Positions 11,839 to 24,154 of a stretch of 32,297 nucleotides of DNA are shown one piece after another; positions within the stretch are counted from its first letter, which is position 1; each line of letters starts with the position of its first letter. Both the position numbers and the translations under genes were made by a program. The stretch spans positions 1 through 32,297 of the forward strand of contig CAMYIO010000027.1 in the NCBI GenBank assembly GCA_947258515.1. Reading direction: 5' to 3'. The notes below the pieces were generated by a model. That model was given only the letters and a program-made list of their open reading frames with translations. It made no database searches and had not been told where the DNA came from. The DNA comes from an uncultured Ectothiorhodospiraceae bacterium (GTDB lineage: Bacteria; Pseudomonadota; Gammaproteobacteria; UBA9214).

Positions 11839-11995
11839 TCGCGGATGCGATCCGCTCCTACATGGACAAGCACAGGATAAAATGTCGTTTCCTGAATATC
11901 ACGGCCCTTGTGCCCTTGTGCGGCGATTGTTCGCGGATGCGATCCGCTCCTACAGCATAATCGATACACCTGTAGGAGCGGATCGCATCCGCGAT
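11839..11995. repeat. REP cluster C: one single unit plus one inverted pair
   Basis: Three units with the same GCGGAT-cgc-ATCCGC stem (read in either orientation) occur at 11839-11863, 11931-11954 and 11971-11995. The last two form a head-inward inverted pair separated by a 16-base loop. The first two are in the same orientation 91 bases apart, and each is preceded by a similar AAAATGTC-containing stretch (about 11797 and 11879), which suggests a local duplication. The cluster occupies much of the 278-base gap between purL and the MBL-fold gene, both on the minus strand; otherwise that gap shows nothing clear apart from the purL ribosome-binding site. Confidence 0.85.
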
Positions 11996-12011: not shown

Positions 12012-12773
12012 TCAGCTAATGCTGCGCCAGTCCAGTCCCGTCTCCTGCTCCGCGACAGCAATCCAGTCTGTCTCGCAATCCAGCACCCTGGCAAGCACAG
12101 CCTGCGCCAGCTGCGGGCGGTTGTTCTTGTCGCTGAGATGGGCCGCAACCAGGTGCTGCAGGCGCGAGCAATCCAGCCGCGACAACAGGCTGCCTGCCTG
12201 CGCATTACTGAGATGTCCCAGCGGCCCGCCAACGCGCTGCTTGAGCATCGCTGAATACGGCCCGGTCGCCAGCATATCCACATCGTGGTTGCATTCCAGC
12301 AACAGCGCATCGCAGGCATCGAGGCACTCGATGATGTGTGGTGTCATGCGTCCGGTATCAGTCAGCACACCGAGACGCAGTGCCTGATGTTCAAATACAA
12401 ACTGGCAGGGTTCCTGCGCATCGTGCGGCACGGTGAAAGGACGCACCTGCAATTCATCGATGCCGAAGTCCGCATGGCCGTCAAAATACTGCAGGTGTGG
12501 AATGTCATTATCACGCAACATGCGGTGTGTGCCGCGGGTTATCCACACCGGCAGCTCGTATTTACGCGCCAGCAATGGAATACCCCGTACATGATCGCCG
12601 TGCTCGTGGGTAACCAGCAAGGCCGTCAGATCCGCCGCTGTCCGTCCCAGTCGTGCCAGGCGCCGCTCGGTTTCGCGACAGGAGAATCCACAGTCGATCA
12701 TGACCAGCGTGGAACCCGCTTCAACCAGCGTGGCATTGCCACGACTGCCGCTACCAAGTGATGCGAAACGCAT
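12012..12773 (-). CDS. Metallo-beta-lactamase-fold hydrolase, YycJ/WalJ-like
   Basis: The 253-aa protein begins MRFASLGSGSRGNATLVEAG, typical of the YycJ/WalJ branch of MBL-fold enzymes, some of which are nucleases. The dinuclear metal site motif THEHGDHV supplies H56, H58, D60 and H61. Further family features are the LGVLTDTGR segment and the conserved LLLECNHD. The protein is soluble, with no signal peptide. In several gammaproteobacteria (for example Pseudomonas) this gene directly follows bamC after dapA, as here, although the functional reason is unknown. Here the gap to bamC is 129 bases and contains two short palindromes. The biochemical substrate is not established. Confidence 0.85.
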   Translation of the reverse strand: MRFASLGSGSRGNATLVEAGSTLVMIDCGFSCRETERRLARLGRTAADLTALLVTHEHGDHVRGIPLLARKYELPVWITRGTHRMLRDNDIPHLQYFDGHADFGIDELQVRPFTVPHDAQEPCQFVFEHQALRLGVLTDTGRMTPHIIECLDACDALLLECNHDVDMLATGPYSAMLKQRVGGPLGHLSNAQAGSLLSRLDCSRLQHLVAAHLSDKNNRPQLAQAVLARVLDCETDWIAVAEQETGLDWRSIS

Positions 12774-12817: not shown

Positions 12818-12837
12818 ACCCCGGCAAAAGCCGGGGT
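12818..12837. repeat. Short intergenic palindrome, second family (copy 1)
   Basis: A perfect hairpin, ACCCCGGC-aaaa-GCCGGGGT, preceded by CGTC and followed by CCAGA. The layout resembles the CGTCA(t/c)CCC...GGG-tCCAG palindromes scattered through many proteobacterial genomes. It lies between bamC and the MBL-fold gene, downstream of bamC. Confidence 0.6.
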
Positions 12838-12870: not shown

Positions 12871-12895
12871 GTCAGACCCGCTTTCGCGGGTATGA
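12871..12895. repeat. Short intergenic palindrome, second family (copy 2)
   Basis: A hairpin ACCCGC-tttc-GCGGGT flanked by GTCA on the left and TGAC on the right. It lies 40 bases from the first palindrome and directly beyond the bamC stop codon. It shares the C-rich stem layout of the other copy, with a different stem sequence. Confidence 0.55.
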
Positions 12896-12902
12896 CACGG
12901 TC

Positions 12903-14015
12903 CTAGGAGCCTGTCGGACTTAGGATTAATCTACTGCGCTGATGGGAGAACGGCCCAAATACCCCCGATTCCTCGTTGCGTAGGCCCACTATGCGCCTCG
13001 CCTGCAGCACGATTTGATACTGCATCCCCTCGGCATCATCATCCGATGACCACAGGCCCATCCTTGTAAAGAAGCCTTCCTTGTTCTGCCCGGCCAGCGG
13101 GTCGTTGTACTGGACATAATAGATACCATCCGTGCGGTTACGATCATCGACCGCAAAACCGACCCGATCAAGCGCCACGCCGGTGCGGCGCCAGGCACGC
13201 GAGAAGTCCTCGTTAATGACCAGGCTGTCGCCCGAGCGGTCAGAGACCAGCTGCGCGCGCGCACTTCGTTGCGTTTCCTGCGAGACCATGACCGCGGCTT
13301 TTTGCTCCTCGACGCCAAGGAACACCATCAGGCGCTTGAGCATCTCTGCTTCCAGTTCCGGGTCAGTCGGGCGTGGTTGCCATGTGGTGCCGGGGTCAAC
13401 AGCCGTGCCGGTCACGACCTCTTCCACGCCCCGGTGGGTCACGTAGATGTCGGTGAAACCGGGTTCAACACCACGCTCCAGCCGGGTGCGGTACTGGTCG
13501 CGTGTCGCTGCCGAGTAGGCGAAATCGATGGCCTTGCCGAGCGTGTTTCTGATCATTCCCTGGGGTATATCTGCGCGGTTCTCAAGCCAGCCGGTTTCCA
13601 GTATGCCGACGCGAGGATCTTCCATCTTTATGAGGAACCCTTCCTGCAACCAGAATTCCTTGACCTGTGGCCATACCTGGTCCGGCGCACCGTTCACCAC
13701 CAGCCACTGCTGGTCACCGTCACGCTCGACACGCATGCTGGCCTGATTCGGCAGCACGGCCGTCGCACCACCGTCCGGCAAGTCAGCCCCGTAGTCCATA
13801 TAGGTAGTGCCGGCAATATCGATCGACGCCGGCGCCTCATTGATGGTGTTTGATGACAGGTCCGGCGGTATTTCCAGCGTATCAGTCGGCCTGCTCTTCT
13901 TGTAATCGACCTTCTTGGCACCCGGCGCAAGCTTGTCATACATGCTGCAGCCTGACATCGACAACATGCCGGCGAGCGCCATCAGGAAGATTCGGATTGT
14001 TTTGGATAATTGCAT
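12903..14015 (-). CDS. bamC: Outer membrane assembly lipoprotein BamC, with atypical C-terminus
   Basis: BamC is a lipoprotein of the BAM complex, which inserts beta-barrel proteins into the outer membrane. The 370-aa product has a signal peptide ending in lipobox SMSGC (lipidated C23), an unstructured segment with the BamD-contacting region (KSRPTDTLEIPPDLS), and two helix-grip domains. The second domain proceeds normally to the strand MQYQIVLQ near residue 331. After that, where homologues carry a further strand and a terminal helix, this protein has an Arg-rich tail (ARRIVGLRNEESGVFGPFSH onwards) that looks unrelated. The tail runs straight into the repeat-rich intergenic region. Its ribosome-binding site overlaps the dapA stop codon (9-base gap), implying translational coupling. 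Confidence 0.93.
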   Translation of the reverse strand: MQLSKTIRIFLMALAGMLSMSGCSMYDKLAPGAKKVDYKKSRPTDTLEIPPDLSSNTINEAPASIDIAGTTYMDYGADLPDGGATAVLPNQASMRVERDGDQQWLVVNGAPDQVWPQVKEFWLQEGFLIKMEDPRVGILETGWLENRADIPQGMIRNTLGKAIDFAYSAATRDQYRTRLERGVEPGFTDIYVTHRGVEEVVTGTAVDPGTTWQPRPTDPELEAEMLKRLMVFLGVEEQKAAVMVSQETQRSARAQLVSDRSGDSLVINEDFSRAWRRTGVALDRVGFAVDDRNRTDGIYYVQYNDPLAGQNKEGFFTRMGLWSSDDDAEGMQYQIVLQARRIVGLRNEESGVFGPFSHQRSRLILSPTGS

Positions 14016-24024: not shown

Positions 24025-24054
24025 CACCTGATATAAAAAATCCGGGGGGAATAC

Positions 24055-24120
24055 TGTAGGAGCGGATCGCATCCGCGATTTCAGCAGCTAATTTGATCGC
24101 GGATGCGATCCGCTCCTACA
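24055..24120. repeat. REP palindrome pair F, heads outward
   Basis: Units at 24055-24079 and 24096-24120 share the stem GCGGAT-cgc-ATCCGC and are near-perfect inverted copies of each other. They lie downstream of regA and ahead of the intrinsic terminator at 24155. Apart from pair A this is the only pair with the GTAG heads pointing outward. Confidence 0.85.
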
Positions 24121-24154
24121 GTGTTGTGTTTACCAGGCATTTAGGTAAAAAAAA

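Follow-up and report, generated by a model that had tools for sequence, protein, structure and literature searches.

The bamC gene of an uncultured Ectothiorhodospiraceae bacterium, carried on a 32,297-nt contig (the window, that is, the whole stretch of DNA analysed), is read on the minus strand at 12903-14015 and encodes a protein of 370 residues whose last part is foreign to the BamC family. The locus thus raises the question of whether this end is a true protein terminus or was made during assembly. Up to about residue 339 (13001-14015, minus strand), the window protein is an ordinary BamC, as judged from its Pfam match and from an alignment with 13 homologues from related genomes, the closest of which (L033) is 77% identical to it. 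The match to the NlpB/DapX family (PF06804) is confined to residues 37-338, and in the alignment the window protein diverges from its homologues past IVLQA, which bears out the initial reading that it leaves its family near the C-terminus. After IVLQA come 31 codons, RRIVGLRNEESGVFGPFSHQRSRLILSPTGS, and a TAG stop, all within a repeat at 12903-13000.

The end that belongs in this place is well defined. In 12 of the 13 homologues, L033 included, the C-terminus is VIVN(N/D)xxGxRDxSSTAKRILTLLEEQL(R/Q) or a close variant, and the others that share it are 56-68% identical to L033; the thirteenth, L052 (35%), is divergent, yet its C-terminal end is complete. The normal end of about 34 residues is accordingly present in all 13 aligned homologues and absent from the window BamC. 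In the AlphaFold model of the closest homologue with an intact end (mean pLDDT 63; about 80 in the C-terminal part), the segment missing from the window protein holds a strand at 343-349 and a helix at 359-372. On this model the lost bamC end would encode the strand and helix that complete the second helix-grip domain, the very elements that the initial annotation had called missing, and alignment and model both agree with it on this point. A search for the lost end elsewhere in the assembly did not find it, as would be expected of a gap and equally of a real deletion.

The DNA that encodes the tail (12903-13000, minus strand) corresponds to the right half, 98 nt long, of a 168-bp hairpin miniature inverted-repeat element (MITE), intact 168-bp forms of which occur elsewhere. 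It has 14 other near-full matches in its own genome at 83-100% identity, mostly intergenic, so that the earlier suspicion of a dispersed, multi-copy repeat proved correct, and this repeat spans nearly all of the interval 12903-13013 to which that suspicion referred. The terminal inverted repeat (TIR) of 22 bp, CTAGGAGCCTGTCGGACTTAGG, lies at 12903-12924 on the plus strand, and its outermost bases form the stop codon of the bamC frame (12903-12905, minus strand). With up to 3 mismatches it occurs 33 times in the genome, against 0 for a reversed-pattern control, a recurrence far beyond chance. We counted about 23 copies of the element in this genome. The intact 168-bp copies (C19, C21 and C13:52999) are all divergent (89-91%); three right-half copies share an identical inner end, and a class of left-half copies stops 97-98 nt from the opposite terminus.

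Intact elements measure 167-170 bp (rarely 180-189), have 22-bp inverted ends, and carry CTAG at each end in nearly all copies. They were recovered from G011 (same genus), Thioalkalivibrio, Pseudomaricurvus, Massilia, Nitrospirota, Zetaproteobacteria, Geobacteraceae and others, with relatives of the family in many phyla and about 70 TIR pairs in Massilia glaciei. The hairpin of near-constant length with the same 22-bp ends was seen at L013, L092, L095, L097, L106, L114, L118, L136, L144 and further loci. The element folds into a single long hairpin (DNA fold z = -12.2), and compensatory changes affect 39 of the 66 predicted stem pairs across 20 diverse copies; given this covariation, the entire hairpin seems to be under selection. 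A search of 44 intact copies found neither a conserved reading frame nor a transposase gene inside, and a coding element is ruled out, since the open frame is not kept among intact copies. Rfam covariance models gave no match at the gathering score at five loci with intact copies and, in the window, a single chance-level match outside the element; a structured RNA family was likewise rejected in view of the lack of an Rfam match. The element is short, has TIRs, occurs in many copies, contains no transposase gene and shares its ends with an autonomous element, and by these sequence features it is a MITE of a known kind. The family itself is apparently undescribed: no description of it was found in the open literature searched, its TIR core appeared in none of the papers searched, and plasmid records held no match to the element. 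At one locus (L210, G006:C33), the MITE at 1501-1667 is flanked by two 15-nt sequences, accgttctacctgcc and ggcaggtagaacggt, that are perfect inverted copies of each other, as if inserted into the tip of another palindrome.

A candidate source of mobility is found in Massilia glaciei, where a locus (L361, G043:C260, about 1137-2831) encodes an IS1182 transposase, matched by NF033551 at 353 bits (cut-off 270 bits). Its ends, CTAGCAGCCTGTCGGCCTTTGG and CTAGCAGCCTGTCGGACATGAA, match the MITE end at 19 and 17 positions, respectively, out of 22 and likewise bear the CTAG, and this IS1182 element is the probable autonomous partner of the MITE. Because the transposase lies between MITE-like ends with the same CTAG, an enzyme of the IS1182 type likely mobilises the MITE. 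In the genome under study, a search for a DUF772 transposase found none, and the IS1182 model detected a weak remnant only (19 bits). With IS1182-family insertion sequences and IS-derived MITEs the element has in common its inverted terminal repeats and the CTAG at each end; unlike IS1182-family insertion sequences, it is geneless, near-constant in length and a hairpin over its full extent, with compensatory changes. IS1272 belongs to the IS1182 family. It is described as inserting by replacing target inverted repeats (PMC5678879). The inverted flanks at L210 resemble such palindromic targets, but they were present at just one inspected MITE copy, the others having plain flanks.

The inner boundary of the half element was then compared with the limits of the assembly. 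Contig ends inside the element lie 96-98 nt from its terminus, except in two cases with a private SNP: in C30, with the SNP at nt 13, the contig ends at 112, and in C40, with the SNP at nt 53, at 152, in both cases exactly 100 nt when counting starts at the SNP. Two further contig starts have exactly 99 nt in common. Together, these ends, their displacement by SNPs and the 99-nt overlap point to k=99: the assembly behaves as a de Bruijn graph of that k-mer size, its contigs running to the last unique 100-mer, and the contig ends inside the element are on this limit or no more than 2 nt away from it. With flanking bases and SNPs as the sole input, we predicted where the last unique 100-mer should end at 12 joins internal to contigs; 7 of the 12 predictions were exact and 11 lay within 1 nt. 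The exact cases (predicted/observed nt) are bamC (98/98), leuB/asd (98/98), C30 (98/98), C60 (97/97), C15 (97/97) and C35 (97/97 on one side, 98/98 on the other); C40 (98/97), accA (98/99), C62 (97/98) and C31 (99/100) are off by 1, and C36 (99/96) misses the rule by 3 nt.

A real fusion would place unique sequence past the seam, and the graph would pass through, leaving the position of the seam unrelated to k. The seam between repeat and bamC, at 13000-13001, instead falls exactly where the last unique 100-mer stops (98 nt into the element, both as predicted and as observed) and is a probable assembly join. The rule covers the element side only, the bamC-side contig stopping in unique sequence at least 100 bases short of the element. 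The initial annotation, which suggested that a repeat may have inserted into bamC and been fixed as a new terminus, is thus partly supported: the repeat is real, but its end on the bamC side lies at the assembly-graph limit, and other near-identical copies inside contigs are also broken, mostly at the same limit.

These other copies form a consistent set. Not one of the 13 near-identical copies inside contigs is whole, whereas all three divergent, graph-resolvable copies are intact at 168 bp, a split that chance would give once in 560. The core sequence is duplicated in C35 and C15, as if overlapping contig ends had been placed one after the other without being merged; a run of Ns interrupts the element in C8; and the remaining broken copies have lost between a few and about 90 nt, in most cases from the k limit onward. 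In the independent assembly of Thioalkalivibrio denitrificans (L354-L358), each of the five copies fetched has Ns inside the hairpin, which suggests that published assemblies commonly fail on this MITE. Joins of the same type have removed the start codon of asd and cut the ends of accA and of a metallophosphoesterase gene. Half copies at G000:C14:37590-37687 (L020), C13:35877-35974 (L003) and C40:36786-36882 (L024) lie in chimeric ORFs, which comprise an Asd with a MITE-derived N-terminus, an AccA bearing the same tail as the window BamC and a shortened metallophosphoesterase. The gene models of these three proteins should be distrusted.

On the far side of the element, the window encodes an MBL-fold protein (12012-12773, minus strand; PF12706/PF00753). 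The same gene comes next after bamC in the relatives L037-L040, L046 and L048, and because this order is conserved, the order of the scaffold is right and the gap alone wrong; a misjoin of distant loci is ruled out by the same adjacency. The two palindromes noticed earlier in the gap beyond bamC are indeed there on direct reading: CCCCGGCAAAAGCCGGGG at 12819-12836, separate from the element and terminator- or repeat-like, and ACCCGCTTTCGCGGGT at 12876-12891, also separate, a repeat-like hairpin. Situated between the element and the MBL gene, they apparently represent another dispersed hairpin repeat. In relatives such as L037, the gap between bamC and the MBL gene is nearly nil. A REP-like palindromic repeat, TCGCGGATGCGATCCGCTCCTACA, occurs between purL and the MBL gene at 11839-11862, 11931-11955 and 11970-11994, again at 24054-24121, and also at several of the genome's contig starts.

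Given the coincidence of seam and k-mer limit, we regard the BamC tail as very probably an assembly chimera and not a biological terminus, with a full MITE at or just beyond the bamC 3' end. In the proposed sequence of steps, a full 168-bp hairpin MITE with IS1182-like ends and CTAG at each end would sit at or just past the 3' end of bamC. With k=99, assembly of the short reads would have extended from the side of the MBL gene just 98 nt into the repeat, and a later scaffolding or gap-closing step, which we infer, may have joined the repeat end to a truncated bamC contig. Such a join would delete the rest of the element together with the last ~34 bamC codons and would leave a chimeric frame whose stop codon lies in the inverted repeat of the element. 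A native bamC end most likely exists in the cell. Losses of the same kind in accA and asd, unlikely to be tolerated so often, also favour the chimera. Some observations speak against it: the joins at bamC, accA and asd all fall in the element's longest open frame, a coincidence of about 1 in 27 by chance; C36 does not fit the rule; and the contig on the bamC side stops early.

The alternative that fares best, though we hold it to be unlikely, is a real event: the insertion of a full MITE at the 3' end of bamC or behind it, followed by a deletion that the hairpin provoked, through hairpin cleavage or replication slippage, and that cost the element one of its arms and the gene its last ~34 codons. 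BamC would then now end in a MITE-encoded tail. It is consistent with a contiguous sequence that has synteny on both sides, with a frame open up to the stop within the element, and with the in-frame joins at bamC, accA and asd; moreover, hairpins are known deletion hot spots, and BamC is dispensable in E. coli. It does not account for a seam that falls on the k-mer limit, nor for the breakage of all near-identical, presumably young copies while the divergent ones stay intact. It would also require both duplications and deletions to arise at that same limit, and accA and asd to have been damaged as well.

We give still less credence to the idea that the longest open frame of the MITE acts as a portable tag, central deletions having fused one half of the element in frame to bamC and accA at their 3' ends and the other half, also in frame, to asd at its 5' end. 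Rickettsia palindromic elements (RPEs) are inserted in frame in protein genes, and the present case resembles them in that a palindromic repeat is read in frame inside a protein gene. It differs from them in that the in-frame joins lie at assembly limits and that intact MITEs do not share a conserved open frame.

Hardly any probability attaches to a half element that is itself mobile and entered bamC as a 98-bp repeat. The same inner end in three right-half copies would suit such a unit; however, it is k that sets this inner end, the left-half class stops equally, 97-98 nt from the other terminus, the inner end has no terminal repeat, and the intact elements of other genomes are 167-170 bp long. 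A sequencing frameshift whose correction would restore the normal BamC end, an explanation that the abrupt end of BamC homology might invite and that the initial annotation had listed as a refuting condition, is ruled out with near certainty, since VIVN...LLEEQLR is encoded in no downstream frame and the tail DNA is a repeat identical to copies elsewhere.

The locus illustrates that short-read assembly of a hairpin MITE can yield plausible in-frame gene fusions flanked on either side by conserved synteny, and that comparing the position of the seam with the last unique k-mer offers a base-exact test to unmask them. Were the fusion true, a mobile hairpin would be rewriting the ends of conserved proteins; were the open frame a portable tag, one mobile element would have given several conserved proteins of a single genome new C- or N-termini. 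The MITE family, in any case, is real, spread as it is over many phyla with a near-constant 168 bp and a covarying stem, and it merits a study of its own.
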